From a virus, in IMG/VR virus record IMGVR_UViG_3300045020_000094, positions 1-43,390 of that record: DNA of 43,390 nt. One strand, 5' to 3'. The position numbers and the translations under genes were made by a program. Shown piece after piece: positions 9,745-34,742 of this stretch. The notes under the pieces are model-generated. The model searched no databases. It saw only the letters and a list, made by a program, of their open reading frames with translations, and had not been told where the DNA came from. Each line of letters opens with the position of its first letter. Positions within the stretch are counted from its first letter, which is position 1.

Positions 9745-9754
9745 GGGTGGTGCT

Positions 9755-10231: not shown

Positions 10232-10233
10232 GG

Positions 10234-10344: not shown

Positions 10345-10504
10345 GGGGGCTCCTCATGTTGAATCGGGTAACGGTGATTTTAAACATTTTTCCCCCAGGA
10401 TATCCCCATTTGTTGTTTTCCGTTTTGGGTGTTTTTGATCCAAATCCCTCATAGACCAGCTCTAAAGCGCGATGTTGGTTTCCGGTAATCACATATCTTG
10501 TCAT
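10328..10504 (-). CDS. 58-aa hypothetical protein
   Basis: Start MTRYVITGNQHRALELV chosen at ATG 10504 because it shares an ATGA with the upstream stop. The 3' end overlaps the 36-aa ribbon gene by 17 bases. No domain recognised. Confidence 0.5.
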   Translation of the reverse strand: MTRYVITGNQHRALELVYEGFGSKTPKTENNKWGYPGGKMFKITVTRFNMRSPHAPTK

Positions 10505-10869: not shown

Positions 10870-11009
10870 AGGTTCTTTCTGATACGCGGGGGTCCGGCCG
10901 TAGCTCGCGGGCGGCCCCGCACCAATCGCACCACCACCGGGCGGTTATGAATCAAATCATCCAACACCGCGGATGTTCCGCGGTACGGAAACGGGAATTC
11001 TACGTTCAT
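10845..11009 (-). CDS. 54-aa basic hypothetical protein
   Basis: Start MNVEFPFPYRG at ATG 11009 shares an ATGA with the stop of the glutamine amidotransferase gene. The C-terminus is rich in Arg and Lys. Unrecognised; translationally coupled to the amidotransferase. Confidence 0.5.
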   Translation of the reverse strand: MNVEFPFPYRGTSAVLDDLIHNRPVVVRLVRGRPRATAGPPRIRKNLWNLLKRS

Positions 11010-12022
11010 GCGGTCCTCCCGGAGGTTCGAAACTCCTCGATCAACCGGCGCGTCTCGCGTATCGCGGATGTCATACAGCTCGGACACACCACTTCGTTTT
11101 TTCTCGATTGAACTTTATTCTCACACATGGATTTCATACATATATTTGCGTTAAAATCCGCCTCTCCGATGGTATGGATGGATTTTTGACCCCGCGGGGC
11201 GGGTCGTGATGCCGCGCTATGCCGTTCCGCACGGGCCGCACGTTCCCGCCAGCATCCGGGCCGGTATTCTTCCCAGTTTTCCCCGAACCCGGTCCCTCCC
11301 GCATACCGGTACCCAAACCGCATCTCACCGACCTTTCGAACCACGTCGATCGGCCCATCGGGGCCAGGTTCCAACCCGATCCGATACTCGGTATCCGCTT
11401 CGATTTTTAACTCCACTTGAATCTTTGCTCCAACTATCCCACAGGCGCGATCCAACGCTCGTCGGGTGCTCGCAAACAACACTTCCCCGGTGGTCAGCCG
11501 GACCACATGAAGATCTTCCATGTTGAATCGAGCCACCCGCAGCTCCCCGATATCGTTCTCCGGGGTATACAGATACCACGCGATCGCGCCCCAGCCTCGG
11601 ATCTCCCCGAGAGGCTGGCCCTCTGCGATATGAGCGAATATATGCATCGAATCGACTTCGAACTTACGCTTATACTTCGCGTTCAGTTCCCCGTGGGAGG
11701 ATATGCATCCATTATGCACACCGATCACGTATCGAACCCATTTTTGCTCCTTCCCTTCCCCGGTATACCCATCCGCATCAAACGGATGCGCGTTGGCTTT
11801 GGTAACCGCTCCGATTGAGGCCGCCCGGGTATGAAATATCCCTCGTGACCAGTCGTCGGGTAGCTCCCAGGACCCGGTAATCGGACCGATGTGCTTGATC
11901 GTATCGTATCCATTCGTGGCTCCCCAACTATCGGTTCCACGGGATTCAAGATCATACGCAAGAAACGGTAATATACGCCGAGTCGTTTCGGTAATCCGCG
12001 AGGCACCAAATATTCCACACAT
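11006..12022 (-). CDS. class II glutamine amidotransferase (Ntn hydrolase)
   Basis: 338 residues beginning MCGIFGA: removal of Met exposes the Cys nucleophile that releases ammonia from glutamine. Other family motifs are ESRGTDSWG, HTRAASIGAV with NAHPF, and HNGCISSHGEL. About residues 285-320 form a cysteine pair motif (MCENK, CPSC). No synthase domain is fused, so ammonia must be passed to a partner, most likely the amidoligase encoded immediately upstream (TAATG overlap) or the ATP-grasp ligase. This is the GAT-II gene expected in phiEco32-like amidoligase operons. Confidence 0.85.
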   Translation of the reverse strand: MCGIFGASRITETTRRILPFLAYDLESRGTDSWGATNGYDTIKHIGPITGSWELPDDWSRGIFHTRAASIGAVTKANAHPFDADGYTGEGKEQKWVRYVIGVHNGCISSHGELNAKYKRKFEVDSMHIFAHIAEGQPLGEIRGWGAIAWYLYTPENDIGELRVARFNMEDLHVVRLTTGEVLFASTRRALDRACGIVGAKIQVELKIEADTEYRIGLEPGPDGPIDVVRKVGEMRFGYRYAGGTGFGENWEEYRPGCWRERAARAERHSAASRPAPRGQKSIHTIGEADFNANICMKSMCENKVQSRKNEVVCPSCMTSAIRETRRLIEEFRTSGRTA

Positions 12023-13551
12023 TACACAGTCTCCTTGGTTTTTTTGGTCATTTTTTTATCCACCCAGTCCGCGATCATCGGAGGCATCCAGCGACGAGTA
12101 AAGGTTTGTAAATTTTCCACCCCCCGGGCCTCCCCATCTGTCATTCGGGTCACGTTATCCACCAGCCACCCGCACCACAACGGCCAGCATAGAATATCCT
12201 CCGGATCGGTGGAGGCTTCTTTCATACGGAATTCAATGGTTTTTCGATACATCCAGCTATGGATGTTTAGACCAAAATACCGGCACCATTCGTATTTCCC
12301 GCCTTTACGAGCCATCAGGGTTTGATATACCGATCGCCGAGCGTGATCATCCTCACCGGGTTCAAGCGAGATGCCGTACAGGTCCTCGTGGAGGATTCGT
12401 TTTATCTCGTTTGTGTTCTTCGCGATGGTGAGGTGACGTAAAATAACCTTCAACAACCGGGGGGTATGTTTATACCTTGTCCCATGTTGTTGTTCGTAGT
12501 AGATACACTTATCACATTTTGGATGTGACTTCGTCAACATCTGAGCGTAGTGGAGGACCGTGCCGGTTTTGGATCTCCACGGTTCGCATAGATACTGATA
12601 CACCTCCGGCTCGATTCGTTCCCAGATGTACAACAACCTACGGATCTCCCAGTATGATAGATCCGCAGCCCCGACGTGAACGTGATACCCACAGGTATGG
12701 TTGACCGTAGAGCCCGATACCGCTACCGCGGCCGCAAGCTCGGTAAGTATAGATACCAAACTATCCCCAGTCCCGGGCCAGACTGCCATCTCATGCTGTG
12801 ATGGTTCCACGCTACGGTCGAATTCTTTTTGATACGAATAGTGGCGTCGTTTGAACCGTTCGATTGTTCCCCAAGTGGCCAACTCCAACTCTACCCCGAC
12901 GGATCGTCGTAGTGGGTTGAGGATGTTTCCAAGGTTAGTATGTGGTACCACCGATCGTGTGATCGGGATGTTGTATCCAAAATGCGCGGTGTTCCGGCAT
13001 TTGCAGCAGGATTTTTTACACCTCCTACAGGTCCGGCAGATGACTGATGGGGTGTTTGGAATTCGCGACTGGCATTCGTTACAATAGACGCAGATACATT
13101 CACACCCTGAACATCTACGACAGGTCTCGCAAACCGCGGGTGGGATTTTCCACCCAGGGGGAACGATTTTTTGGGCCATGCGAGATTTACATCTCACGCA
13201 TGGGATGGTAAGTTTAGGCCGACGGGGTCCGCGGACCTCAGTAACAGTCGGGGGTGGGATATCAGGAAGCGTGTTTATTTGATTCGTTGCGGTACCCCAT
13301 GTAAATACCGGTTCCCCGGGATTCCTATATCTTAACGTATGACGATTTAGTGTAGGGATTCTTGTATCTACCGGACGATCTTCATTATCATCAGGCAACA
13401 CCCAACCCGGATTCCCCGTCACCACCCGCATTTCCTCCACATACCCCGGGGTCCCGTACTCGATCTCGACTCCCCGTTGATCCACCAACCGCCATAACCC
13501 GTGCCTATTCGTTTGCTGCCTTCCGTTTACCACGTTTCGTTTTATTGGCAT
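12022..13551 (-). CDS. Amidoligase_2-like enzyme with Cys-rich N-terminus
   Basis: 509 residues. The core has VGVELELATWG (about residue 217), HTCGYHVHVGAADL and an FGLNIHSWMYRKTIEFRM segment, as in glutamine-synthetase-fold amidoligases that join a carboxylate to an amine. Residues 135-205 hold many CxxC pairs (CVRC, CETC, CSGC, CNEC, CRTC, CCKC), probably several zinc knuckles that could recruit a substrate. GGAG lies eight bases before ATG 13551. It sits directly before the amidotransferase gene. Substrate unknown. Confidence 0.78.
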   Translation of the reverse strand: MPIKRNVVNGRQQTNRHGLWRLVDQRGVEIEYGTPGYVEEMRVVTGNPGWVLPDDNEDRPVDTRIPTLNRHTLRYRNPGEPVFTWGTATNQINTLPDIPPPTVTEVRGPRRPKLTIPCVRCKSRMAQKIVPPGWKIPPAVCETCRRCSGCECICVYCNECQSRIPNTPSVICRTCRRCKKSCCKCRNTAHFGYNIPITRSVVPHTNLGNILNPLRRSVGVELELATWGTIERFKRRHYSYQKEFDRSVEPSQHEMAVWPGTGDSLVSILTELAAAVAVSGSTVNHTCGYHVHVGAADLSYWEIRRLLYIWERIEPEVYQYLCEPWRSKTGTVLHYAQMLTKSHPKCDKCIYYEQQHGTRYKHTPRLLKVILRHLTIAKNTNEIKRILHEDLYGISLEPGEDDHARRSVYQTLMARKGGKYEWCRYFGLNIHSWMYRKTIEFRMKEASTDPEDILCWPLWCGWLVDNVTRMTDGEARGVENLQTFTRRWMPPMIADWVDKKMTKKTKETV

Positions 13552-14237
13552 AGATTCTCCAGCCGAATGATCTTTTTCACCAACCGTTCCGACCGACCCC
13601 CGGACCGAGCGATGATTCCTACGATTCGGTTTATCACGTCTTTCGCACCATCAGTGTTGATCTTATACGAAAACATCCTTGGAAACAACGCAGCGAAATC
13701 GAGAGAATCGATAATCTCGACAATCCGATCCCTCCCGTTCGTGATATTCGGTATCAACCTTCCCGGGAAACTGTGTAACCTCGTCCAAAACCCGTTCCAA
13801 TCCGCGGTGTTTCCGGTTCGTTTCAGTCTGGCATCTAACCATGTCGCGGATTCAACGATACTATTCAACCCGATTGTACCAGTTACCCCCATCGCCGTCT
13901 CCGGGGTTACCACTATCAACGATATCGGATTTGGCCCAAACAACCCGCCCGACCAGATTCCTGTCTGGTATTTATCCATATTCCCTTGATAGACATCTTG
14001 TTTATACCCCGAATACCACTGATTTCCAGGGATCGATATTACCTCTCCCATCGCGGATTCCAACCCGAAACTCCAGTATTTTAACACCTCTTTAACCTTA
14101 CGAGACACCTCATCCGCTTCGAGCACAAGGTGTTTTTCAACTATAAACCCCGAATACCGAAGGTATTTTTGTATATTCACCCATTCGGTCCGGGTTCCCG
14201 CGAGAACCAGATTACCTTGAACTACAACGTTGACCAT
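13542..14237 (-). CDS. 231-aa hypothetical protein of the amidoligase cluster
   Basis: Not recognised. Alternates hydrophobic strands and Gly-rich turns, with a central SIPGNQWYSGYKQDVYQG stretch and an Arg/Lys-rich end. GAGAGG precedes ATG 14237. Its stop overlaps the amidoligase start by ten bases, so its product is likely to act in the same pathway, perhaps as the modified substrate or a partner protein. Confidence 0.6.
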   Translation of the reverse strand: MVNVVVQGNLVLAGTRTEWVNIQKYLRYSGFIVEKHLVLEADEVSRKVKEVLKYWSFGLESAMGEVISIPGNQWYSGYKQDVYQGNMDKYQTGIWSGGLFGPNPISLIVVTPETAMGVTGTIGLNSIVESATWLDARLKRTGNTADWNGFWTRLHSFPGRLIPNITNGRDRIVEIIDSLDFAALFPRMFSYKINTDGAKDVINRIVGIIARSGGRSERLVKKIIRLENLCQ

Positions 14238-14551
14238 AGTAGCCTCTCATCCGGGGTGTTCTGAACCTGGTACCCGAAAAATCTCACCGGCAGGGTTTTG
14301 TTCTTTATCGATACCACCCGTACCGCGCAGATCGAACATCGCAACTCTCGCCCGACCATAGCCTCCTCGGGGGATGAGTTATGAACAGTTACGATCGTTT
14401 TGGTCTCCTCGATCACCCCGCCCCGGCAGGCTCTACACATCGGGTCGTTTTGGTATCGAATCTGGGCGATGAGCTTGAACAACTCCTCAGATATTGGTCT
14501 GAGGGTTATCCCGTCATGCACGATCCGATACGGGTTTTTCAACAATATCAT
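14222..14551 (-). CDS. 109-aa zinc-ribbon protein
   Basis: CRAC near residue 39 and CSIC near residue 72 make a likely four-Cys ribbon. AAGGAACAGG lies before ATG 14551. The stop overlaps the next gene. First gene of the segment after a 320-base stretch with no clear gene. Confidence 0.6.
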   Translation of the reverse strand: MILLKNPYRIVHDGITLRPISEELFKLIAQIRYQNDPMCRACRGGVIEETKTIVTVHNSSPEEAMVGRELRCSICAVRVVSIKNKTLPVRFFGYQVQNTPDERLLWSTL

Positions 14552-14871
14552 ACCCTGTTCCTTTCACGATCTTCCCTTCGATTCGATCTAGGCTTGGCAA
14601 GAGCTTTTAGACTATCATATAAAAACTACCCTCAACCGTCCAAAACAACCCGTTCCGATCATGCTAGTCGAGGTCTATGACCCGCTGTGATGTCGGAAAC
14701 ATTTGTTTCTTATCTGATCTCATTGAGAATAGTAGCCTTAACCAAACCCCCGCGAGATGGTACTTTATGGGTGACTAATCCATCCCCCACCAACATCTCC
14801 CAGCGATCGAATCGAAGGAAACTCAAACGGGGGAACGGGGATGTTTATCCCCCAAGTTCCCCCGGTCCTTG
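14552..14871. other. mostly non-coding stretch with strong hairpin
   Basis: No gene of normal quality; a 26-28 codon minus frame near 14700-14800 lacks support. At 14829-14863, GGGGGAAC pairs with GTTCCCCC and encloses GGGGAT pairing with ATCCCC, a very stable two-part stem. No T-run follows on either strand. It may end transcription from the ligase genes upstream or protect an mRNA end. Confidence 0.4.
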
Positions 14872-15054
14872 TTATAGAAAAGTCTCTACTTGCCATGGGT
14901 GGGGGTGTGGGCCGCTCCCACCCACGGTTCTATAATCTTCAAACCTCATGTCACCTTGAGATCGGTTAATCTCAACACGGGGGATCTCGGTCCCGCAAGA
15001 ATACTTTCCCGCACCCGAACGGAACAACCATTCGTGATTCCGGAATTTCTTCAT
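14872..15054 (-). CDS. 60-aa hypothetical protein
   Basis: Begins MKKFRNHEWLFRSG. Start ATG 15054 shares an ATGA with a tiny 18-codon frame (15051-15107) upstream. Its 3' end contains an 8-bp inverted repeat (14896-14903 with 14917-14924) that could be a terminator. Moderately supported only. Confidence 0.4.
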   Translation of the reverse strand: MKKFRNHEWLFRSGAGKYSCGTEIPRVEINRSQGDMRFEDYRTVGGSGPHPHPWQVETFL

Positions 15055-15144
15055 CGTAAAAACATTGTGTGCGATCTAGAACAGGGTGGAACCCGTTCCT
15101 CGTTCATCCAAGTTTGGTAGCGTAAGGTTTTATTCAAGGATAGG

Positions 15145-16473
15145 TTAGATTTTTTTTCGGGTTCTTTCGAACTCCGCGGAATCGTGGCTCCATCGAGGTT
15201 CGAATGGAAACGACGCATCGGCCGTCCCGAACTCCCAGTTTCTCGGAATATCCGTAGGATCGTCGATCATGATCGAGATACCATGGAATATCACATCCAT
15301 CGCGATCGCGATGAGGGACTTCGATGGCCCATAAATCACCCTCACCATCGCCTCCAAAACCGGACGATTTCGAGTAAGAATCTTTCTCGCGAGCCTTACA
15401 TCATACTCGTTGATCGTTTTTCTTACCTCCTCTTCCGTAGCATCCCACATGAACTGTTGACCTTTTAATCCCATCACTACAGCTTTCCGAGTGATATCCC
15501 ATACGAGATTATACGTTGCTGGATGCGCTCCCAGGGCCGGCCCTGGGACCCGCCATTCAAGCCCATACTTCGGCAATCGATACTCCCCCGCACGGCCGTA
15601 TATCTCCCTACGAACCGGGGTAGTCTGCCCTTCCAGACCTTGAAACATACTCGTCATCATCACCCCGCTGATCGCATCGCACATTTTTACCGCGTCGCGT
15701 AGTTTTTCCGGGGAGGGTTTTGGTATAACACTGCTCCCCATTCCAAAATGCATATGTTCCCCGGCGCTCCGCCAGGGCATACATCGAGGTTCCGGGATCT
15801 CTACCGGCGGGGCCCCATACGCGTTCAACGAAGGTTCGCATCCTAACGCCACATGCTCGGACGACGCTTGTTCCAAAACCTTCGGATCGATGAGAACCAT
15901 ATCGTCCAACACGAGCCGAGCCTCGAGGTTGTATTTCTGAAGCCGATTATGAATCCTCTTCAGCCCCAACCGCCGATCTCGGGTCATGTATCCCAAACAT
16001 CGATGTCCGGTCCCTACACCATACTTCACCACCTCCGGACATTCTAACCGCCATTCGGCTTGAAACCCGTCATAGTACTCCGCAGGATGCGATCCGGACG
16101 GTTTTTTCCCCAACCACTCATACGCGGGCACGACCTGGTTTCCAGCCTTGGCGAAAATCTCCGGATCGGTTCCGATGGTAAACCCACCAAAAGGACCAGT
16201 ACCCAAATCCGCAGCAGTCAAATCCGGGTTTTTCAAGAAACTCTTTCGAATTTTATCTCCCTTCGAACCCCGAAGGACGTTGACCCTTTGGGGAGGGGCC
16301 CAACGACCCACATAAGGTACCTGGATTTTACTACCCGAGATCCCATACACCCCATCATACCCCCGATCATCCGATCGAGTTTTTATCACATGCGTATCAT
16401 CCGGTTTGGTCAACCCGACCACCACCATCCCAGGTTCTAGATCCGTATACTCCACCACCTCTACATCACTCAT
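15145..16473 (-). CDS. phiEco32-type COOH-NH2 ligase (type 2)
   Basis: 442 residues from ATG 16473, which overlaps the upstream stop and has GAGGTGCGGGG before it. Family signs are GTDPEIFAKAG, WRLECPE, SAGEHMHFGMG with metal-binding His, and LPKYGLEWRVPGPALGAHP. These match glutamine-synthetase-like ligases described in phage phiEco32 that are predicted to form amide bonds in proteins or peptides. About 110 N-terminal residues precede the catalytic core. It is the second ligase of this fold in the window, so two different bonds may be made. Confidence 0.78.
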   Translation of the reverse strand: MSDVEVVEYTDLEPGMVVVGLTKPDDTHVIKTRSDDRGYDGVYGISGSKIQVPYVGRWAPPQRVNVLRGSKGDKIRKSFLKNPDLTAADLGTGPFGGFTIGTDPEIFAKAGNQVVPAYEWLGKKPSGSHPAEYYDGFQAEWRLECPEVVKYGVGTGHRCLGYMTRDRRLGLKRIHNRLQKYNLEARLVLDDMVLIDPKVLEQASSEHVALGCEPSLNAYGAPPVEIPEPRCMPWRSAGEHMHFGMGSSVIPKPSPEKLRDAVKMCDAISGVMMTSMFQGLEGQTTPVRREIYGRAGEYRLPKYGLEWRVPGPALGAHPATYNLVWDITRKAVVMGLKGQQFMWDATEEEVRKTINEYDVRLARKILTRNRPVLEAMVRVIYGPSKSLIAIAMDVIFHGISIMIDDPTDIPRNWEFGTADASFPFEPRWSHDSAEFERTRKKI

Positions 16474-16643
16474 CCCCGCACCTCCTCTCGAATTTCCGAT
16501 ATCGTCTGGGCGATCTGAAGATCCAACAGCTCTCGATCCACGATCGTTTGTTCGGTATGACGTACCAACGCGTCGATAGTTTCCGGCCGCCGTGCTCGAA
16601 GCGCTTCGATGATCGCGTAGCGTTCGGATGTTGAAAGTTTCAT
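16470..16643 (-). CDS. 57-aa helical protein
   Basis: Start MKLSTSERYAIIEALRARR; all-helical, charged, coiled-coil-like to the end. The stop and the ligase start share an ATGA. It could be a substrate peptide or adaptor for the ligase; no direct support. Confidence 0.55.
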   Translation of the reverse strand: MKLSTSERYAIIEALRARRPETIDALVRHTEQTIVDRELLDLQIAQTISEIREEVRG

Positions 16644-16648
16644 AGTTA

Positions 16649-17308
16649 TTACCACCCACCTTCTAGCGCAGGCAAGTATACCTGCACTTGTTTTCGAATT
16701 TCGTTCTCTACCGGGAGTTGGCTATACCGAGTTGCCCGAACAAACCATCGCCATTTCGCCGTTTTGGCTGGATTTCCTTTATGAAACGACTGCCAGTTAA
16801 ACTGAATCAGCCGATTCGGGGGGATTTGTTTTTCAGCTCTCGGTACGTATTCCAGATACTTATTTATTCGGTTGTTCCAGATTTTATACACAACCCCTTC
16901 CCCGTTTGGAACATCATACATCACAACCCTCCCAACCAAAAACGATGTCAACGAACAATCCCCAATAACCGCCATGATATGTTCCGCACGATATGCTGGA
17001 TTCAAATGATCCGGTTGACCATCTGGTCGAGTCCGAGGAACATCATCAAGATGCCATCCGGGAATACAAGGATACCAACCCGGCATTAACATATGCGATC
17101 GGGAATCGATCAAAAGATTCGTGTTCTTCCAATCGGAAGGGAGTAGGTTTATAAACTCCTGTGTTATCGGACCACCGTGTTCAACCGCGTATTTCACATC
17201 AGCCCGATAAAACATCGGTTCGTTTTTAATCGCGATCACATCCCGATGTGATAAAACTCCTGGAAGTATCGTATACTTCGATTCGAATTGGATAGGTTCA
17301 CCGGTCAT
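16649..17308 (-). CDS. 2OG-Fe(II) oxygenase-like protein
   Basis: 219 residues with the iron-binding triad pattern: GWHLDDV (HxD, His86 and Asp88), a distal His in QSFHKG, and an Arg in WRWFVRAT that would bind 2-oxoglutarate. Such enzymes hydroxylate peptides, nucleotides or lipids. Its place between the ligase and the cysteine peptidase suggests it tailors the same product. ATG 17308 shares an ATGA with the peptidase stop. Fold assignment is by motif spacing only. Confidence 0.6.
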   Translation of the reverse strand: MTGEPIQFESKYTILPGVLSHRDVIAIKNEPMFYRADVKYAVEHGGPITQEFINLLPSDWKNTNLLIDSRSHMLMPGWYPCIPGWHLDDVPRTRPDGQPDHLNPAYRAEHIMAVIGDCSLTSFLVGRVVMYDVPNGEGVVYKIWNNRINKYLEYVPRAEKQIPPNRLIQFNWQSFHKGNPAKTAKWRWFVRATRYSQLPVENEIRKQVQVYLPALEGGW

Positions 17309-21390: not shown

Positions 21391-21417
21391 TCCAACACCC
21401 CCTCCCAACCATTCTAG

Positions 21418-21490
21418 GTGACCGACGGGATTCGAACCCGTATAAACTGGGACCACAACCCAGCGCATGAACCTATTCTGCCACGGTCAC
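21418..21490 (-). tRNA. tRNA-His (GUG)
   Basis: Acceptor GTGACCG/CGGTCAC, T-arm ACGGG-TTCGAAT-CCCGT, anticodon arm CTGGG-TTGTGGT-CCCAG with U33 and anticodon GUG. No CCA encoded. All helices are perfect apart from the D-arm, which is normal in layout. The first base G could serve as the His identity G. Confidence 0.92.
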
Positions 21491-26246: not shown

Positions 26247-26544
26247 ACTTATATCATTCGATCCTCGGAACCTGCTTCACCTCCTGATCCATTATACCCA
26301 GGATCATGAAAACCAGATCCCGCTCGACGGGGAGGTTATCGGCTGCGGGGTAAGCCCGGTCCTATCCCACTGGCTTTGCCTTACGGTTCGATCCTCGAAA
26401 TGGAACGATCCTGGAGTTGACGCGGCTGGACAACCGTTACCACTTCATATCCGATACGAAGGTAAGAAAACCATGGCGTGGGGTTCAAAGGGGGAGACCA
26501 AAGGTGAATGGAAGGATGGAATTGAGGGACCGAATGGATCGTAG
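26233..26544 (+). CDS. 103-aa hypothetical protein
   Basis: MAGTRLISFDPRNLLHLLIHYTQ and a beta-like WLCLTVRSSKW segment; polar tail. Resembles the preceding two genes in general style, unrecognised. Confidence 0.55.
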   Translation: MAGTRLISFDPRNLLHLLIHYTQDHENQIPLDGEVIGCGVSPVLSHWLCLTVRSSKWNDPGVDAAGQPLPLHIRYEGKKTMAWGSKGETKGEWKDGIEGPNGS

Positions 26545-26644
26545 TGGAATAGCAATCCTCATTACTCTTATACTACTCGGAATTTGGTTGATGATCGGAG
26601 CCTGTTCGTCTGACGGTGACGACGATCAGTCTTGGAGAAAGTAG
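26534..26644 (+). CDS. 36-aa small lipoprotein, possible outer spanin
   Basis: MDRSGIAILITLILLGIW then LMIGAC, a good lipobox with Cys after Gly-Ala, and an acidic tail ending DDDQSWRK. After lipidation only a dozen residues remain. ATG 26534 was chosen over an upstream in-frame start because the signal then begins correctly. Small size would be unusual but not unknown for an o-spanin. Confidence 0.45.
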   Translation: MDRSGIAILITLILLGIWLMIGACSSDGDDDQSWRK

Positions 26645-26650
26645 ATTTAC

Positions 26651-26741
26651 GGGCCACCGGCCCGCCCGATCCCACCTGCCAAAGTCACGCCGCATGAGAT
26701 TCCCCATCTTAGTCTTACACCTCCAGGACACGCGGCGTGAC
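26651..26741. repeat. hairpin and 10-bp inverted repeat before the sugar cassette
   Basis: GGGCC/GGCCC (26651-26663) is followed by GTCACGCCGC (26684-26693) and its perfect inverse GCGGCGTGAC (26732-26741), 38 bases apart. The second arm covers an in-frame GTG of the HAD gene. This lies exactly at the boundary between small genes and the heptose cassette and may be a terminator, an operator or an insertion scar. Confidence 0.5.
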
Positions 26742-26757
26742 GGCTAAAATAACTAAT

Positions 26758-27024
26758 ATGTTTATTGCACTTGATTATGATGATACCTATACACGAGATC
26801 CAGGTCTTTGGAACCAGTTTATTGAGCTAGTTAAAAACGCAGGCCATGATATATCTATTGTTACAAAACGAGGCCCTTCTAACCAGGGACCGATCCCGGT
26901 AGAGATTTCATGTCCAATAGTATATTGTGATCGGGCCGCAAAAGCTTATTACTGCCGAGATCATAATATTCATATCGATATATGGATTGATGATGCGCCT
27001 CAGAATTTATATCAAGACGGATAA
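26758..27024 (+). CDS. HAD-family phosphatase, small
   Basis: MFIALDYDDTYTRDPGLW has the DxDxT nucleophile motif; IVTKR supplies the Thr and Lys-like region and IDIWIDDAP the acidic motif IV. At 88 residues it is a capless HAD. GmhB in heptose synthesis is also a HAD phosphatase, and this gene lies directly before an HldE-type kinase, so it may dephosphorylate the sugar bisphosphate. More AT-rich than the kinase. A GTG at 26737 is an alternative start. Confidence 0.65.
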   Translation: MFIALDYDDTYTRDPGLWNQFIELVKNAGHDISIVTKRGPSNQGPIPVEISCPIVYCDRAAKAYYCRDHNIHIDIWIDDAPQNLYQDG

Positions 27025-27033
27025 ACTATAGAC

Positions 27034-27807
27034 ATGTCATACCAACCCACAATCCCTGTGATAGGCGATGCGTTTACCGACCGTTACCATATCGGCGAAT
27101 CCACCCGGCTTTCCGCCGAGGCCCCGATTCCGGTAGTTAAGATTACCAAAACCTTTGATCTCCCCGGTGGGGCGGGTAACGTGGCTCGGAATCTCGACGC
27201 GCTTGGAGCCCGGGTATTACAAGGATATATCGGCCCGTTCCCGATTAAGAATCGGTTGATGATCGACGACCATCAGATCGCACGGTGGGACGAGAATGAT
27301 ACCTGTCAATCAAACCGGCTGATCGTTCCAATCCTTCGAACCGCGGATGCTATCGTTATCGCGGACTATGCAAAAGGATCGGTCACCCCGGAGATTATTC
27401 AAACCATCGGAAACTGGATGTTTGATACCGGAAAGCCGGTATTTGTGGATACCAAACGAGCCCCGGGGTATTTCTACGGACTCGATAAATGGTATACTAT
27501 ATTCTTTCCAAACCAAAAGGAACACGATGAATTCAATTACGATATATCGGGGGTTAGATATATCCTCAAACGAGGACGGGACGGAATACAGTATGATGAT
27601 CGAACCTTACCATCTACCGCACGATTTGTTCGTTCAGTTAATGGAGCGGGGGACAGCGTCATTGCAAGTTTCGCGTTCGCCACGGTCACCGGGTACTCTG
27701 ATCCACTCGCTTTTGCCAATACCGCGGCGGGATTAGTGGTAGAGAAACCGTATACGGCAGTGGTAACGAAAGAGGAGATAGAAAGTGCCCTTCAAATCAA
27801 ACTATAA
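27034..27807 (+). CDS. HldE N-domain-like sugar kinase (PfkB family)
   Basis: 257 residues. GDAFTDRYHIGESTRLSAEA and VVKITKTFDLPGGAGNVARN are the signature start of heptose-7-phosphate kinases; VNGAGDSVIASF carries the GAGD catalytic base. The family is usually about 315 residues, so a middle part is shortened. In bacteria this domain is fused to an adenylyltransferase as HldE; here the partner domain is a separate gene 1.4 kb on, beyond a terminase gene. Likely phosphorylates a heptose phosphate at C1. Confidence 0.8.
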   Translation: MSYQPTIPVIGDAFTDRYHIGESTRLSAEAPIPVVKITKTFDLPGGAGNVARNLDALGARVLQGYIGPFPIKNRLMIDDHQIARWDENDTCQSNRLIVPILRTADAIVIADYAKGSVTPEIIQTIGNWMFDTGKPVFVDTKRAPGYFYGLDKWYTIFFPNQKEHDEFNYDISGVRYILKRGRDGIQYDDRTLPSTARFVRSVNGAGDSVIASFAFATVTGYSDPLAFANTAAGLVVEKPYTAVVTKEEIESALQIKL

Positions 27808-28042
27808 AAATATAAACGAGTTTAGAGTAAAATGTTGGCCAGAGGATAATGGTAAGGTAGTGATAGGATTTTATAAAACCGATCAGGATGGTTACGAATC
27901 AGGAGACACACTTGAGTTTCCTAGTATTCCAGCGGCTTTATCGGCTATCGACGATCTGCGGAGTAGTATAGAAAACCTCCCAAGGTTATGGAAAGAACAA
28001 CGAGAATATCATGCCCTACGAAACACAAGCCCAGGATCGTGA
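27785..28042 (+). CDS. 85-aa hypothetical protein in the sugar cassette
   Basis: GTG start at 27785 with GAGGAG before it, overlapping the kinase end by 23 bases. AT-rich, charged (NEFRVKCWPEDNGKVVIGFY), ending in a helix. Overlaps the cupin gene by 32 bases. Unrecognised. Confidence 0.55.
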   Translation: MPFKSNYKNINEFRVKCWPEDNGKVVIGFYKTDQDGYESGDTLEFPSIPAALSAIDDLRSSIENLPRLWKEQREYHALRNTSPGS

Positions 28043-28397
28043 GTTTATAACAAAAGTCTGGGGGGCTGAGGAGGTTCTTGTCAATAACGACAAGTACTGT
28101 TCGAAAATTCTCCATATCCGCAACAGATACCGATGCTCGCTACATTACCACCCGACAAAAGACGAAACATTCATCGCTCTTGAAGGTATGGTTAAAGTAG
28201 AATACTCCCCGGTTCCGTATAACAAAAAACACGAGGCGATTCTATCTGGTAAGTTTCGTGACGCGATTCACATCCCACCAAATACCCTACACCGGTTTCA
28301 GTCCTTCGCGGGCGACGCGATGCTTCTTGAAGTATCCACCCCGCATTCTGATGAGGATGTTGTTCGTTTAGAACCGTCCGGAGAAATTCCCACGTGA
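28011..28397 (+). CDS. cupin, sugar-isomerase type
   Basis: 128 residues. KVWGAEEVLVNNDKYCSKIL, then SLHYHPTKDETFIALEG with the His/His/Glu metal set of cupin motif 1, and HIPPNTLHRF for motif 2. The WG-E-LV-N-YC-K pattern is typical of cupins encoded with heptose or mannose nucleotide-sugar genes (ManC-like). It could isomerise or epimerise the sugar phosphate, perhaps instead of GmhA, which is missing. Stop overlaps the terminase GTG (GTGA). Confidence 0.75.
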   Translation: MPYETQAQDREFITKVWGAEEVLVNNDKYCSKILHIRNRYRCSLHYHPTKDETFIALEGMVKVEYSPVPYNKKHEAILSGKFRDAIHIPPNTLHRFQSFAGDAMLLEVSTPHSDEDVVRLEPSGEIPT

Positions 28398-29248
28398 GTC
28401 TTGAGCTTACCGCGGATCTAGTTCGTTGGCTAGGAGCACAAAAACCGGCTCGGCGTAACAAATACTACGCCGCGATAGGCCAGATCGAATGGTCCCGATG
28501 CGCGGATGATATACTCTACTGGCTAGATCCGGCTCGTCACCTATTTCCCTACGTTCACACCCGAGACCCTAAACCACTTTACTCCTGTCGGATTTGTAAA
28601 AACACCGCCACCCATACCTTCGACCAACGACACACCCACTTACAGTTTCGCCATTCTATCGACGATGAAATCCCCGAATCGGGTCTCCGAACGTATTTTG
28701 AAGAACTTCCTCGTACCCGACCGTTCACGATGTTTCCGTACGTCGAGCCGATTGTAAAATACTGGCAACGTGAAAAGATAGTGTTTATCGAGAAATCCCG
28801 AGACATGATGGTAACCTGGCTTACAGTTGCGATGTACACTTGGGACACGATATTTCATGAAAACCGAGAAAACATTTTCCAATCCGATGACGCCACAAAA
28901 ACAGGAGATCTTGTTGAACGAGCGTATTTCATATATGCTAACCAACCCAAGTTTTTACGCGATATACATAAAGCCCAATTCGGTCTTGGCACAACTCGCT
29001 CGGGAGTTCTTAGGGTGCCATCTCTCAATAGCGTCGTTCTCGGGTTTCCGCAAGGGCCAGATCAGGTCCGGCAGTATCACCCCTCTGGGGTCTTTGTAGA
29101 TGAGGCTGCGTTTCAGATCCAGGCTGGGGATGCGTTTATGGCTGTGAAACCGGCTATCCAATCTGGTGGTCGATATACGGCTGTGTCATCCGCGAACCCG
29201 GGGTTTTTTATGATGGCTTGCCGAGATACTCTTGAAGGCGCAATATAA
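28394..29248 (+). CDS. terminase large subunit, ATPase part only (split TerL)
   Basis: 284 residues from GTG 28394. A front domain with CRICKN precedes the packaging ATPase: a degenerate Walker A EKSRDMMVTW (about 133), Walker B GVFVDEAAF (about 232) and the coupling motif YTAVSSANP (about 261). It stops shortly after, exactly where TerL normally enters the linker to the nuclease. The nuclease half is a separate gene at 30768. The ATG of the nucleotidyltransferase overlaps this stop (TAATG), so the break is a real gene end, not a random stop. Confidence 0.85.
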   Translation: MSLELTADLVRWLGAQKPARRNKYYAAIGQIEWSRCADDILYWLDPARHLFPYVHTRDPKPLYSCRICKNTATHTFDQRHTHLQFRHSIDDEIPESGLRTYFEELPRTRPFTMFPYVEPIVKYWQREKIVFIEKSRDMMVTWLTVAMYTWDTIFHENRENIFQSDDATKTGDLVERAYFIYANQPKFLRDIHKAQFGLGTTRSGVLRVPSLNSVVLGFPQGPDQVRQYHPSGVFVDEAAFQIQAGDAFMAVKPAIQSGGRYTAVSSANPGFFMMACRDTLEGAI

Positions 29249-29787
29249 TGCAATACATAAAACGTCCCCAACGAATCGATAACTACTATATCGCCCGAAA
29301 CTCCATGGACCCGGTGATCGAGGAACCGGTATGGTTACGGCCAAAAGATTTTAAAGGTCTTCATCTCCCTGGTCCGGTGGTACTATGCAACGGGGCATTT
29401 GATCTTCTACACGTCGGGCACATGCGAGTCCTATTCCGAGCGCGCCGCGGTGTGATCGAAAACCACCGGCATGTTCCAACAAAAACTCTTGTAGTCGCGC
29501 TTGATTCAGATCGTAAGTGCGCGATGAAAGGTCCCGGGCGGCCGATTTTATCATTCATCGAACGAGCCGCGGCGTTGGCGTATATGCCGGTAGACTATAT
29601 TGTAGAAATCGATACCGAGCGGGATATGTATGATCTGGTAAAATACCTCTCCCCAGATCTTCGAGTCCAGGGGCCGGATTATCTTAACCGACCTACCCGG
29701 TTCCCGTATATCCGGAGATGTATTGTAAAAGATTACTCAGGAATGAGAACGAGTGAAATTATAAGGAGATGTAAACTTGTTAAATGA
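29248..29787 (+). CDS. HldE C-domain-like nucleotidyltransferase
   Basis: 179 residues. VVLCNGAFDLLHVGHMRVLF holds the HxGH motif; VALDSDRKCAMKGPGRPI, VDYIVEI, LRVQGPDYL and a final SGMRTSEIIRR match the adenylyltransferase domain of HldE, which makes ADP-heptose from heptose-1-phosphate. About 42 extra residues precede the domain. Its natural partner kinase is at 27034. The nucleotide used cannot be told from sequence. It lies between the two terminase halves. Confidence 0.8.
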   Translation: MQYIKRPQRIDNYYIARNSMDPVIEEPVWLRPKDFKGLHLPGPVVLCNGAFDLLHVGHMRVLFRARRGVIENHRHVPTKTLVVALDSDRKCAMKGPGRPILSFIERAAALAYMPVDYIVEIDTERDMYDLVKYLSPDLRVQGPDYLNRPTRFPYIRRCIVKDYSGMRTSEIIRRCKLVK

Positions 29788-30070
29788 TAACGGTTCTGAA
29801 TCATACGGAACTATACCCGAAATTGAAAATATCAACTCACTACAAATGAGTATTCTTAACCGGTTATGGCTCAACGAGCGAAAACGAAAGGAAAAGAAAA
29901 AGAGACTGTTTAGCCTGGTAGAAACGAATATTAACGGCGCACGAAAGTATATTGATGAATTACTTTCTCAGATCGAATATGACCCGTCAAATTATACTTT
30001 AGGTAGTCATAACCACAAGGTTCTTAAATCCTGGTTAGAAACATTTCCTTTTGAGGATATTTGGTTCTAA
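29777..30070 (+). CDS. 97-aa hypothetical protein inside the terminase split
   Basis: TTG start at 29777 with AAGGAG (29763-29768) eight bases before it; no usable ATG nearby. AT-rich, with a Lys/Arg-rich helix NERKRKEKKKRLF and an aromatic end. The stop overlaps the methyltransferase ATG (TAATG). Unrecognised; composition suggests separate origin. Confidence 0.55.
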   Translation: MLNDNGSESYGTIPEIENINSLQMSILNRLWLNERKRKEKKKRLFSLVETNINGARKYIDELLSQIEYDPSNYTLGSHNHKVLKSWLETFPFEDIWF

Positions 30071-30801
30071 TGAACGAAGCCACAAAAGTCCGTGAACGTT
30101 GGAAACGCGAAGGTATAATCGATCGTTATATCACCGGTAAAGTTCTAGATATCGGATGTGGAGAGGATAAAATCGTCCCGCAAGCGGTTGGTTTCGACCG
30201 CGCAGACGGCGATGCGCAGTATCTTAAAACCCTTGAAAACGAATCATTCGATACGGTATTCAGCTCCCACACCCTCGAACACATGCGGGACCCGCTGGAA
30301 GCGGTTCTAAACTGGTGGAGAGTACTTCGGCCCGGCGGGTTCATGGTCATCATCGTTCCCGATGAGGATCTATACGAACAAGGCCTTTGGCCATCGCCGT
30401 GGAACCCGGATCATAAATTTACCTACACAATCAGCAAATCCAAATCATGGTCTCCTACCTCGCGTAATCTCATCACCCTTCTTTCCCACCTTCCGGATCA
30501 TAAAATCGTATACATCAAAACCCTCGATCAAGGATTCGATTACGACCCGGGGTGTTATAAAGACCAAACTCTCCGTGGAGCCGAGGCCGCGATCGAAGCG
30601 GTCATCCACAAACACACTGAACAACTTACCCTATATTCCGGTCTTAAAGACCTGTTCCGATGCCCAGACTGTGAACAATCTCAACTTCGGGTGTTCGGAA
30701 TTACCAAAGAATCTAAAATCGATATCCGATGTTACAACTGCGGTTGGACCGGAACTTGCGAGATCCCATGCCGGAAGTGCTCCACCAATCCGACGGACTA
30801 A
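30070..30801 (+). CDS. class I SAM methyltransferase with C-terminal zinc ribbon
   Basis: 243 residues from ATG 30070. VLDIGCGEDK is the SAM-binding motif I, FDTVFSSHTLEHM motif IV and VLRPGGFMVIIVP the next strand, as in sugar or LPS-type methyltransferases. The last 40 residues have FRCPDCEQS and RCYNCGWTG, a zinc ribbon. It may methylate the activated sugar or the final glycan. The final 34 bases overlap the terminase nuclease gene. Confidence 0.8.
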   Translation: MNEATKVRERWKREGIIDRYITGKVLDIGCGEDKIVPQAVGFDRADGDAQYLKTLENESFDTVFSSHTLEHMRDPLEAVLNWWRVLRPGGFMVIIVPDEDLYEQGLWPSPWNPDHKFTYTISKSKSWSPTSRNLITLLSHLPDHKIVYIKTLDQGFDYDPGCYKDQTLRGAEAAIEAVIHKHTEQLTLYSGLKDLFRCPDCEQSQLRVFGITKESKIDIRCYNCGWTGTCEIPCRKCSTNPTD

Positions 30802-31673
30802 AAATCGTCCGTAACGATAAAAATAAATTCTGCATCGTTACCCTTCACTACACCGCGGACCCGATTAAACGTACCCCGGAGTGGAAAGCTGAAGCCTCGG
30901 CTGGAATGCAAGGGGCAAAGTGGGATAAAGAATACGAGATCAACTACACAGCCCTCTACGGCCAACGGGTGTTCCCGGAGATTCAAACCAACCGGGAAAA
31001 AATAGTAGTCCAACCCCCGTATCCCGACTTCCCTCCTACCCAAATCTTCTGGGCCGGGTTCGATTTTGGCTCCCGAAACCCTAGCTCGTTTCATGTTTAC
31101 ACCGTCTCAGACGGCGTGATCTACGCGATCTGGGAACTATACGAACCTTGTAAAAACATTCCTGACCTCGCAGGAAAGATCCTTGGGTGCCCGTATTATA
31201 GTAATATAAAATACATCGCTTGCGACCCGGTCATTACGAACCAAAAATCTCGTACGAATAAATTCGGCGATCTTGTTACTCTTAACGATCTTTTGATCGA
31301 GCAGGGGATTAAAAAACTCCGTCAAGGAGACACCAACGAGTCCACTTGGCTTGCTGAAATCCGAAAACGGTGGTCCTCTCCGGAAGACCCAACGTTCCAA
31401 ATCTACGCCTCCTGCCCAGCGATGATTCAAGAATTCGAAAACGCGGTCTACGCATCTCAAAACGAACGCGAACTCCTTACCCAAACGTATCGAGAGAACC
31501 TTGCGGACATAAACAACCACGCTCTAGACGATAACAAATACTTCATAAACTCCCGCCCTATCACCACCCAACACGCTTTTACCGACCCGGAGATGTGGCG
31601 GCGGTGGGTTCGTCAACATGAGATCGGTTCTGGCCCGCGCCGGACCGAGCGTGTCCGAGGCCCCAAGTGGTAA
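30768..31673 (+). CDS. terminase large subunit, nuclease part (split TerL)
   Basis: 301 residues from ATG 30768. FCIVTLHYTADPIKRTPEW is the TerL linker that usually follows the ATPase domain, then WDKEYEINY and an RNase H-like nuclease: FAGFDFGSRNP-type first Asp (seen as GFDFGSRNP), YIACDPVI and a late DDNKYFI acidic pair. No clear ribosome site; translation may depend on coupling to the methyltransferase. With the ATPase gene it would rebuild one TerL from two chains. Confidence 0.85.
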   Translation: MPEVLHQSDGLKIVRNDKNKFCIVTLHYTADPIKRTPEWKAEASAGMQGAKWDKEYEINYTALYGQRVFPEIQTNREKIVVQPPYPDFPPTQIFWAGFDFGSRNPSSFHVYTVSDGVIYAIWELYEPCKNIPDLAGKILGCPYYSNIKYIACDPVITNQKSRTNKFGDLVTLNDLLIEQGIKKLRQGDTNESTWLAEIRKRWSSPEDPTFQIYASCPAMIQEFENAVYASQNERELLTQTYRENLADINNHALDDNKYFINSRPITTQHAFTDPEMWRRWVRQHEIGSGPRRTERVRGPKW

Positions 31674-31699
31674 CTATAACTCTCTCAATCGTATAACTA

Positions 31700-31708
31700 T
31701 GCTATAAT
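31700..31708 (+). promoter_or_regulatory. extended -10 promoter
   Basis: TGCTATAAT (31700-31708) is an extended -10 with a poor -35. It is followed by an A/T run and CTAGG, a pattern seen again at 40836. The predicted start is about three bases before ATG 31718, so the mRNA would be leaderless or nearly so. Confidence 0.6.
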
Positions 31709-31717
31709 ATATCTAGG

Positions 31718-32356
31718 ATGGCCGATCCCTACGTCGAGGCGTTTCAAAAACTACTAGGTCAATCCGGACCGACGTGGGCTCAAAGTCGGGCTACCCGGGC
31801 GAATTTGTTATACACCCCTATCGCAGAAAATAACGTAGTTGGACAAGACCCCGCGGATCGGGAGACGCTATACGGTTACGCAGTTCCTCCAGGGAATAAC
31901 CCAAGCCCGCTTAAACGCCCCGAGCCTTGGGATATGTTGAGTCACATACGTGATACTCTTACCTCCGCGGCGTTGTATCAAAGTATCCGAGATAACAAAA
32001 CCGGCACTCTCGTAATGGACCCGGTTCAGGCGGTTAAAGACAACGTGGATCTTAACTCTACCCGTCGGCATGAACTTATCCACAACGCGATCGATCAATC
32101 AAACATAAGCGATCAAACACTTGCAAGACTTGCTAAGTACGACCCTAACGGTCAAAAACTTTCGAAACTATTCGCAGACTCTCCGGCCGCAGGCCATGTA
32201 GGGAACGAACTTCCCGCATACATGCTTGAATACCACCCTGGCGAAATCGCCGGTGTGACCCCGTCCCTCCGTCAGGGTTACATTGATGCGCTCTACAAAC
32301 GACTCGGGCAGATCGACCCGAAACTCCCCAACCGACTTCGTGCGATAGTAAAATAA
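31718..32356 (+). CDS. HExxH zinc metallopeptidase-like protein
   Basis: 212 residues with RRHELIHNAID (His118, Glu119, His122), the zinc-binding helix of metallopeptidases, and NELPAYML at about 163, where a third Glu ligand is often found. It lies between the terminase and portal genes, where many phages place head genes. It may mature the head or be injected. No signal peptide. Activity inferred from the motif. Confidence 0.55.
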   Translation: MADPYVEAFQKLLGQSGPTWAQSRATRANLLYTPIAENNVVGQDPADRETLYGYAVPPGNNPSPLKRPEPWDMLSHIRDTLTSAALYQSIRDNKTGTLVMDPVQAVKDNVDLNSTRRHELIHNAIDQSNISDQTLARLAKYDPNGQKLSKLFADSPAAGHVGNELPAYMLEYHPGEIAGVTPSLRQGYIDALYKRLGQIDPKLPNRLRAIVK

Positions 32357-32357
32357 C

Positions 32358-34742
32358 ATGCCAAACGCGTTTCTATCCGTTCCTGCCGAGTTTGTATCAG
32401 ATCAAAACCCCGAGACTGAATCTCAAGGGGCTCAAAACCAAACCGATGAGCAGCGCAAACGTGCCGCGGATAACCAAAAAGTTCGTCAGTATGTGATCAG
32501 TTGGCGTAACCAGCTTCGACAGTACCGATATGAAAAACTCGCAGTCTGGAACGAATGCTGGCAGTTGTACCGTGGTGCGGAGGACTGGACGGATAAAGAA
32601 GACTGGCAATCGAAGATCACTCTTCCAAAAGCGTTCTCTTCGGTAAAACAAGCTACGAATGTGATTAAGCGGTTACTCAATGCCGCCAAGAAACCATATA
32701 ACATCGAAGCAGAAAACCCAAACGATCAAGTAACCGTCATCCGCTCCGAGCAGATGACCCACATCACTCAGGTCCTTCTTGAAAAAGCAAAGTTCATCGA
32801 GGAGTTTACCACCGGGCTTGAGGCGGGGTTTATTCAAGGTGTAGGAATCTGGAAACTTTGGTGGGGACTTGTCCCACGCGTTGTTACGAAGGTCCAGACA
32901 AAAATAGTTCCGGGACAGCCGGTACAAGGCGTAGAGCAGGGTGGTCTGGCTGCGGCCCAAAGCGTGCAGCCGGTCGCAACGCCTACACAATCTCCTGCTG
33001 CCACGAATCCGCAGTTCCCTGAAGCCCCTGAAGCTCAACCTATCGGCGGAGGAGTTCCTATTGAAGCCCCGGCGTCGAATCGCACAGCCCAGCCGGTTGG
33101 TCAGTTACCGAAAGATCTCATCCGACAAGATCAACGCGTATACCCAACCCAGCTAGGACAAGAAGCGATTAACCCGATGAATCTCCCGGGTCCTGGTGGC
33201 GCGGGCCAAGGTGGTCTCCAACTTCCTCAGATCCCAATGGTTCAACAGAAATCTATCGTCCGGGAGGAGATTCTTGAGGGGAAACTATTTATCAAAGCCG
33301 TAGATCCCTACAACTTCTACTGGCTCCCGGGTTCCAAAATGAACCGTTGGACCGGCACGATCGAAGAGATCGAAGTTCCTAAATGGGAACTTATCGAAAT
33401 GGCGGATCTTGGGGTATTTGATAAAAAACTCGTCAAAGAAATCCAGCCGATGAAAATCGAAGAAGGCCAAAAACAATCCTGGCTTCGGTGGGGTGAAATG
33501 CCTCGAACCACAAACGGCCCAACCGCGGATACTGGAGTCGTAAAACTTACCGAATACTACGGTCCTATTGTTCTTGAAGGAGAGATGGTCGAAAAAGACG
33601 GTCATGTTCTCGTCGCAAATGACACAGTCGTTTTAATCAACGGCAAGAACCAGTTCTGGCATCGTAAAGCCCCATACGTTGGATACTCCCCGGTAGGTAT
33701 TCCGTTCCGCACCGAAGGTATTGGTCTCATTGAGATGGTGCGCCAGATCGATAAAGCTTTAAACCGTCTCGCAAACATGTCCGTAGACACTCTCATGTTT
33801 CGGCTTATGCCGATCTTCGAAATGACCCCGGATGTTTACGAGAACCCCCAGGACTTTGATACAGGCATGGTCCCTGGAAAGATCTTTCGCCGTAACGCCC
33901 AATACCCCGGCCAGCCCGGACTTAAACCCATCACGATGGAAGATATCTCCCAAGGTACCGTTCAAGTTCAAGGTATCCTCGATCGAGCCCATCAAGAAGG
34001 CGCGTTAGTCTCCGAAATCCAGCAGTCGCTTCCACGATTCCGAGGTGCCCAAACCGCGACGGAAACCGAAACCATGCAAACGAACCAACAGTCGTTTTTT
34101 GGTTCGATGGCCGCGGATATCGAGATTCAAGCCGTCGGGCCGATTGTCGAGATGGCGCTTGATCTTATTCTTCAATTCATCGATACCACGCAAGATCCCC
34201 GAATCGCATCGATCCTTGGAATCGAAGCGGGAGTTCTTGCCGGAATGTCTCGTGAAGAGGTGATGGAGCTAATCCAGGGAGATTATAAAGTCCACGTCCG
34301 TGGGATTACTGGTCAACTTGAAAAAGCCGACATGCTTCAAAACCTTGTCCAATTCATGAACCTCATAGGACAAAACCCGCAAGCATGGTTACCTTACATC
34401 AACCAATCCAAACTTCTCCAACGGATTCTTGAAGCGTTCCGTCCCGCGATTCACGACATCGAACAGATCATTGCGGACCCAGAAACGGTTGAAGCAAACA
34501 AACAAGCGATGCTCGGTGAACAAATCACACCGGATCTTTTGAAACTTATCCCGCAACTGATTCAAGTCAAACACGACGCGGCGGCCGCTCAGTTCGATCA
34601 AGCCCAGGCAGTAGCCGACCAGACTCATGCCCACCATGTTACCGATGTCCAACAAGGTCTTGATATCGCACGGCTCCAACATGATCGCGAAACGGCAAAT
34701 CTTAACCAGCCCGGAAACCAACCGTCATCCTCAGCACGATAG
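32358..34742 (+). CDS. portal protein
   Basis: 794 residues, in line with long podovirus-type portals. Evidence: position after terminase, YVISWRNQLRQYRYEKL clip-side helix region, WQSKITLPKAFSSVKQAT, VDPYNFYWLPGSK, GYSPVGIPFRTEGIGLIEM and a long helical C-terminus. Residues of about 190-300 form a Pro/Gln/Ala/Gly-rich insertion that is probably disordered. The dodecameric ring would bind terminase and the neck. Start follows the peptidase stop by two bases. Confidence 0.85.
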   Translation: MPNAFLSVPAEFVSDQNPETESQGAQNQTDEQRKRAADNQKVRQYVISWRNQLRQYRYEKLAVWNECWQLYRGAEDWTDKEDWQSKITLPKAFSSVKQATNVIKRLLNAAKKPYNIEAENPNDQVTVIRSEQMTHITQVLLEKAKFIEEFTTGLEAGFIQGVGIWKLWWGLVPRVVTKVQTKIVPGQPVQGVEQGGLAAAQSVQPVATPTQSPAATNPQFPEAPEAQPIGGGVPIEAPASNRTAQPVGQLPKDLIRQDQRVYPTQLGQEAINPMNLPGPGGAGQGGLQLPQIPMVQQKSIVREEILEGKLFIKAVDPYNFYWLPGSKMNRWTGTIEEIEVPKWELIEMADLGVFDKKLVKEIQPMKIEEGQKQSWLRWGEMPRTTNGPTADTGVVKLTEYYGPIVLEGEMVEKDGHVLVANDTVVLINGKNQFWHRKAPYVGYSPVGIPFRTEGIGLIEMVRQIDKALNRLANMSVDTLMFRLMPIFEMTPDVYENPQDFDTGMVPGKIFRRNAQYPGQPGLKPITMEDISQGTVQVQGILDRAHQEGALVSEIQQSLPRFRGAQTATETETMQTNQQSFFGSMAADIEIQAVGPIVEMALDLILQFIDTTQDPRIASILGIEAGVLAGMSREEVMELIQGDYKVHVRGITGQLEKADMLQNLVQFMNLIGQNPQAWLPYINQSKLLQRILEAFRPAIHDIEQIIADPETVEANKQAMLGEQITPDLLKLIPQLIQVKHDAAAAQFDQAQAVADQTHAHHVTDVQQGLDIARLQHDRETANLNQPGNQPSSSAR

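Follow-up and report, generated by a model that had tools for sequence, protein, structure and literature searches.

The large subunit of the phage terminase (TerL) is already known as the product of two genes. The Arthrobacter cluster AY phages (BillyTP, PP978841, and BlueShadow) encode the TerL ATPase and nuclease as two genes and are viable isolates (PMC11920828, PMC12820723). Here, we describe a TerL whose ATPase and nuclease parts also lie on separate genes, found in the virus record IMGVR_UViG_3300045020_000094 (hereafter the window: the full linear record of 43,390 bases). The AY genes are consecutive (17-nt overlap), and the cut between them coincides with the true interdomain linker, so that the ATPase (~360 aa) is complete and the nuclease has ~198 aa. 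In the window, by contrast, the cut falls inside the ATPase domain and whole genes stand between the two parts. We rejected the AY phages as relatives, since the alignment shows a different break and the likeness is therefore convergent. Thus, two-gene TerLs are known already, and the cut inside the ATPase domain together with the interleaving is the new variation. Our literature search, with subscription journals mostly outside its reach, returned no report of a TerL with a cut in its ATPase domain or with other genes between its parts.

Two further kinds of system invite comparison. Aeh1 nrdA/mobE, T4 genes 39/60, and phage 25 gene 43 show that an essential enzyme can be made of two reassembling chains: the insertion of an endonuclease can divide a phage gene without loss of its function (Aeh1 nrdA, phage 25 gene 43), the split NrdA of Aeh1 is fully active, and the split gp43 chains co-purify (PMC2988022). 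Some relatives of the window likewise carry an HNH gene at the break. Unlike these homing-endonuclease genes in pieces, the window break holds no endonuclease, its insert is mostly metabolic, and the split has been inherited by a large clade. The TerL coding sequence is also interrupted in Bastillevirinae, the cyanophage Mic1, the phage IBB_35, and herpesvirus UL15; however, these intron- or intein-bearing TerLs are spliced to one protein, whereas the window halves have their own starts and stops and no splicing element was found.

Our best explanation, which we regard as likely, is that the window TerL is a two-chain motor with a composite ATPase, derived from one old split that was later invaded by a sugar cassette. 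Two separately translated chains would associate non-covalently and package DNA. Chain 1 would bear the ATP site, comprising the Walker A motif, the Walker B motif with its catalytic glutamate, and the coupling motif. Chain 2 would complete the ATPase core with its last strand and bring the lid, the linker, and the RNase H-like nuclease, and a working ATPase domain would form only upon the meeting of both chains. A first-pass annotation of the sequence had raised a two-chain motor as a possibility; it is now the best reading of two separately translated genes with no intron seen between them. The AY phages are viable with a two-gene TerL (PMC11920828).

The genes named in that annotation are open frames at the coordinates given in Table 1, and its division of TerL into two genes stands, with 1519 nt between the two open reading frames (ORFs). 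Chain 1 matches the TerL families phrog_5989 (5e-7) and phrog_2 (0.002), and chain 2 matches phrog_5653 (6e-5) and phrog_10250. Performing Foldseek searches, we find that chain 1 resembles the T4 gp17 ATPase (E 3e-10) and chain 2 the TerLs of D6E, SPP1, and P22 (E 3e-10 to 1e-8). The AlphaFold2 (AF2) model of chain 1 has a predicted local distance difference test score (pLDDT) of 95 and a predicted template modeling score (pTM) of 0.91. That of chain 2 has a pLDDT of 88, and its N-terminal strands (residues 3-8, 11-15, and 22-26) are predicted well. Fold, motif order, and an RNase H-like nuclease with conserved aspartates are thus shared with T4 gp17 and D6E TerL, but these two are single polypeptides, the gp17 P-loop is canonical where the window has KSRDMMVT, and no C2H2 finger was noted in them.

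The catalytic residues are intact in both halves. In chain 1, K134, S135, and R136 (Walker A) and D236 and E237 (Walker B) are invariant in 36/36 aligned members, and the S-S/T-A-N coupling motif is conserved. In chain 2, the acidic residues D99, D153, and D254 are invariant (34/34 aligned members) and the LHYTADP strand is conserved among the aligned members. The locus therefore has the ASCE ATPase features of a Caudoviricetes TerL (a coupling motif, a Walker B motif followed by the catalytic glutamate, and a Walker A motif, albeit deviant). It also has the three acidic residues of an RNase H-like TerL nuclease. It departs from the usual TerL in that the two domains are not on one polypeptide but on two ORFs, in all 47 groups of split relatives described below. 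The portal-like gene, the usual neighbor of TerL, follows the nuclease gene, and this position is kept in clade relatives whose contigs reach that far. The deviant P-loop, KSRDMM[VA]T, carries a lysine at its start, as in lambda gpA and unlike the gp17 position, and the chain 1 P-loop appears to be lambda-like. The ratio of nonsynonymous to synonymous substitution rates (dN/dS) did not exceed 0.11 for either half in every close comparison where it was computable (L105/L106, 0.005 and 0.020; L108/L109, 0.033 and 0.020; L049/L050, 0.040 and 0.107). Judged from these alignments, both halves are intact and under purifying selection.

The position of the break is what sets this TerL apart. The chain 1 profile aligns to T4 gp17 139-288 and ends at the coupling motif, while the hidden Markov model (HMM) alignment places chain 2 residues 25-262 on D6E TerL 197-417. 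The interdomain linker of D6E TerL is at 230-241, and the lid is the proposed transmission element of TerL motors (PMC5727402). Because the alignment to D6E begins at 197, before the linker, chain 2 holds not only the linker and the nuclease but also the lid and the end of the ATPase domain. In all split alignment rows, the coupling-motif segment (..SSANPGWF..) lies before the break and the strand FxVxxLHYTADP after it, and on the upstream side homology stops at the chain 1 end in every split relative checked. The alignments thus put the break in a loop of the ATPase core that follows the coupling motif, and not in the interdomain linker where the first-pass annotation had put it. The tens of residues between the two positions change the mechanism, since the ATPase domain itself is in two pieces. 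For the nuclease start, ATG 30768 fits the relatives (M-PE-[VIL]-L) better than ATG 30729.

This position also bears on whether the ATPase is composite at all. Chain 1 could instead make up the motor by itself, with chain 2 serving as a separate headful nuclease at initiation and termination only. The confident prediction of chain 1 folding alone suits such a division of labor, and TerL nuclease activity is required only at the ends of packaging. Yet chain 2 carries the conserved last ATPase strand (LHYTADP) and the lid, and natural fusions, described below, retain the TerL order; we consider an independent nuclease improbable. A bolder form of the two-chain motor is one in which the ATPase core is shared by a P-loop chain and a lid-nuclease chain, the latter perhaps being an exchangeable, regulated subunit that docks with the aid of the clade-specific C2H2 finger, so that coupling and cutting could be dosed through the amounts of the two chains. 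We regard this as rather improbable.

Relatives were gathered from scans of viral and genome contigs and from HMM mapping; all of them are metagenomic or metagenome-assembled genome (MAG) contigs. Seventy-one loci have the halves in different ORFs, making 47 groups at <95% nuclease identity. Twenty-nine of the 47 form the clade of the window, and the other 18 branch deeper, have no nearby sugar genes, and keep the halves mostly adjacent. The clade has the order [HAD]-kinase-cupin-ATPase-nucleotidyltransferase (NTase)-...-methyltransferase-nuclease-portal. Independent contigs repeat this order at 44-64% identity, so it is neither chance nor an assembly chimera. Relatives with the order of the window were thus found as a whole clade, and the chimeric assembly that had been named as fatal to the idea is not what they show; the description of the genes as shuffled together is not supported, the order being conserved over the entire clade. 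The NTase lies within the gap in 23/29 clade groups and a methyltransferase in 25/29. The kinase is upstream in all 21 clade groups with enough upstream sequence, the other 8 contigs beginning <740 nt from the ATPase gene. Pairwise distances agree better between the two halves (r 0.75) than between either half and the NTase (0.57, 0.37), which argues that the halves travel together while the cargo is exchanged.

A decaying terminase, or an assembly or frameshift artefact, would also yield two ORFs. The contigs are metagenomic and frameshift errors are possible in L149 and L103, but one break point is common to 47 independent groups, the catalytic residues are intact, dN/dS lies far below 1, and the halves are separated by whole genes. 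For this family we give an artefact practically no credence, as it is already refuted. Simple stop-codon recoding was also considered and ruled out, since in many relatives the two halves are read in different frames and entire genes intervene.

The history of the split was examined in trees built without the junction columns. Split rows fall on one side of a branch (Shimodaira-Hasegawa-like approximate likelihood ratio test, SH-aLRT, 94; second tree, 93/81, 90% of bootstrap trees). This branch adjoins L130, whose TerL is a single ORF with a long loop where the others are broken, and the signature GLxIxxN..FxVVRLHYTADP is common to both. Nested in the split clade, next to L043 (100/99), are two one-ORF TerLs of the acidobacterial genome G011. 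That these two ORFs fuse both halves in one frame from within the split clade argues that the halves are partners. The fused ORFs (L171:7822-10026 and L172:4486-6828, both minus strand) lie on one acidobacterial contig (G011 C45) and have both halves in frame. They carry N-terminal tandem helix-turn-helix segments resembling a small-terminase or transposase-type DNA-binding domain, and a third, nuclease-only ORF lies near them. One split and one re-fusion is the simplest reading of the trees, and several independent splits would also be compatible with them. A TerL with a long loop after the coupling motif would have been cut there into two adjacent genes, an old and probably single event. In one descendant clade, the gene boundary would then have acquired a cassette of nucleotide-sugar and methyltransferase genes, so that the ATPase gene came to stand between the kinase and cupin genes and the NTase gene. 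Separately, L149:7860-9382, on a 2.2-Mb chromosomal contig, has a TerL split at the same loop with an ATGA overlap; this split appears to be independent, and a frameshift error there is possible.

One member of the clade lacks the insert. In L137, a Bryobacteraceae MAG, the halves overlap by ATGA (4 nt) with no genes between them. L137 is nested inside the interleaved clade, as sister to L037 (99/97), so its adjacency is probably a loss of the insert. This single Bryobacteraceae contig is a tentative pointer to the host; a search of 250 genomes from the order to which L137 belongs turned up no other copy of the family.

Splicing could in principle restore a single chain. Herpesvirus UL15 is a two-exon terminase gene, and the halves here might likewise be exons joined when an intron, or some other splicing, removes the gap genes. 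Phage TerL genes are known to carry group I introns that are spliced (Bastillevirinae; PMC11878797), and HNH endonucleases sit in the gap of some relatives. Still, Rfam gave no hit in 26500-32500 even at E<=5, and none in the relatives that bear HNH genes, in agreement with the first-pass report of no group I core at the edges. In every split alignment row, homology continues as far as the stop codon that ends one half and the start codon that opens the other. With the exception of L137, the gap runs from 0.75 to 4.9 kb across the clade and holds varied genes, and the 4-nt overlap in L137 leaves no room for an intron. We consider exons very improbable. Trans-splicing of the chains after translation by a split intein has precedents of a kind, as TerL inteins are known in the cyanophage Mic1 (PMC7156551) and the Campylobacter phage IBB_35 (PMC3322345). 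Here, few non-conserved residues extend beyond the homologous blocks of either chain, leaving no room for intein halves, and the gap genes have no match to Pfam intein domains. A split intein is therefore extremely improbable, even more so than exons, and the two-chain motor remains the preferred reading.

Endonucleases offer a possible source of the cut. HNH-like genes lie at the TerL break in five groups. In L120:1555-2157 and L054:8506-9039, the gap is filled by an HNH gene with a Pfam HNH match, while L026:1083-1598, L098:6176-6547, and L103:6044-6490 are HNH-like by Cys/His motif and mutual similarity, without a Pfam HNH match. Within the window, no homing endonuclease gene (HNH or GIY-YIG) was found at the break. 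The presence of HNH-like genes at the break of unrelated members suggests a recurrent homing site, and insertion of an endonuclease is the likeliest origin of the split, although these genes may equally be later arrivals.

In the interleaved clade, chain 1 carries a C-x2-C...H-x4-H motif (C65, C68, H82, and H87 in the window) that is invariant in 28/28 aligned members and is modeled by AF2 as a beta-hairpin plus helix. The motif is absent from 8 aligned basal split members, and the one-ORF outgroups gave no match. Chain 1 thus seems to have gained a zinc finger in the interleaved clade. Docking of chain 2 or contact with DNA are our guesses at its role.

The sugar genes were described earlier as a broken HldE. 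The best matches of the kinase and the NTase are indeed the two HldE domains, and the active-site motifs are present (NGAGDS for the kinase GAGD, HVGH for the NTase HxGH). However, the kinase scores 153 bits against TIGR02198 (cut-off 345) and the NTase 63 bits against TIGR02199 (cut-off 181.5). Since both fall well short of the curated cut-offs, the label "HldE-like" is correct, whereas "HldE" is unsupported. In the cyanophages P-TIM68 and S-CAM3, the kinase, NTase, and cupin matches are also separate neighboring genes, so we see no sign that a fused HldE was broken here. These cyanophage cassettes resemble that of the window in clustering an HldE-like kinase, a separate HldE-like NTase, and a cupin. 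They differ in having no adjoining terminase gene in the stretches examined, whereas the window cassette surrounds the TerL ATPase gene. Most likely, the sugar genes serve to synthesize or alter a sugar nucleotide during infection and take no mechanical part in packaging. The gap methyltransferases of the clade are of three unrelated types (Methyltransf_11, FkbM PF05050, and TylF PF05711), and the gene preceding the nuclease has been swapped among these families (L012:4433-5269, L028:3630-4160, and window 30061-30801), hinting at selection on the methylation step rather than on a particular methyltransferase protein. In the L001 lineage, the NTase (L001:8842-9384) has a degraded HxGH motif (TASH) and may be inactive.

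Several observations weigh against the reading as a two-chain motor. The predicted fold of chain 1 suggests that it could act by itself. Its Walker A glycine and usual P-loop lysine are replaced (KSRDMMVT). The distance agreement of the nuclease with the portal is 0.76, so that the value between the halves is no higher. Shine-Dalgarno-like motifs precede only 17/47 nuclease starts against a 23% background, a mildly positive result that we do not use as support. No isolate of the split-TerL family was found in the phage collection searched. The linear 43-kb contig may also be incomplete, and a divergent second TerL beyond its ends is conceivable. A complete TerL elsewhere had been named as an outcome that would overturn the split, and searches with both halves and phrog_2 found no second TerL in the record or in 8 relatives, the matches being the halves themselves; the sole match in L104 falls within its own ATPase half. 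Promoter and terminator scans stayed at chance level.

It has long been asked how the ATPase, lid, and nuclease of TerL communicate during packaging, and the question has mostly been approached with single-chain motors. A natural cut between the coupling motif and the lid would make the ATP-site chain and the lid-nuclease chain separately titratable, swappable, and mutable. One and the same break occurs naturally in fused, adjacent, interleaved, and gap-lost forms, so that the order of events can be tested. An essential gene can, on this evidence, turn into a landing site for metabolic cargo, and two-gene TerLs are prone to being missed or mis-annotated in metagenomes.

The genes around the break are tightly packed. 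As the first-pass annotation had noted, starts and stops overlap (GTGA at 28394, TAATG at 29246-29250), and the methyltransferase and nuclease genes overlap by 34 nt. Its account of the gap genes (nucleotidyltransferase, small ORF, and methyltransferase) agrees with our open frames and Pfam matches. Of the genes placed before the ATPase gene, the kinase and the cupin are borne out by Pfam, while the HAD label is unsupported, as that gene matches only unnamed phrog families.

Table 1. Features of the split TerL locus and its neighbors in the window.
Feature	Position	Strand	Details
95-aa gene (HAD-like phosphatase is the first-pass label)	26737..27024	+	phrog_4256 4e-23, phrog_4919 7e-23; unnamed phage families only
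HldE-domain-I-like PfkB sugar kinase	27034..27807	+	257 aa; PF00294 1e-10
85-aa small ORF	27785..28042	+	open frame; family searches without match
Cupin, sugar-isomerase-like	28011..28397	+	PF01050 3e-6; phrog_7851 2e-22
TerL chain 1 (ATPase)	28394..29248	+	284 aa; GTG start overlaps cupin stop; N-terminal region with C2H2 zinc finger, apparently lambda-like Walker A KSRDMMVT, Walker B VDE, coupling motif SSAN
C2H2 zinc-finger motif in chain 1	28586..28654	+	C65-x2-C68-x13-H82-x4-H87
Chain 1 end past coupling motif	29206..29248	+	FFMMACRDTLEGAI-stop; upstream edge of break
HldE-like nucleotidyltransferase, first gap gene	29248..29787	+	PF01467 (CTP_transf_like) 1.9e-7; phrog_7878 9e-16
97-aa small ORF in gap	29777..30070	+	open frame; no convincing family in Pfam or PHROG searches
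S-adenosylmethionine (SAM) methyltransferase (Methyltransf_11)	30061..30801	+	PF08241 5e-12; Cys-rich, zinc-ribbon-like C-terminal tail
TerL chain 2	30768..31673	+	301 aa; last ATPase strand FCIVTLHYTADP, lid, linker, RNase H-like nuclease
Portal-like protein, downstream of nuclease gene	32358..34742	+	phrog_332 6e-24

Elsewhere in the window, ARAGORN called two tRNAs on the minus strand, a tRNA-Tyr with an unusual ATA anticodon (3455-3527) and a tRNA-His (GTG; 21417-21490), of which Rfam confirms only the tRNA-His. Also on the minus strand, 9022-17308 holds a cluster of ATP-grasp/RimK-like, amidoligase, glutamine-amidotransferase-like, and COOH.NH2-ligase genes (phrog_2599, 4736, 2443, 3815), possibly a peptide- or amide-forming pathway carried by the phage.

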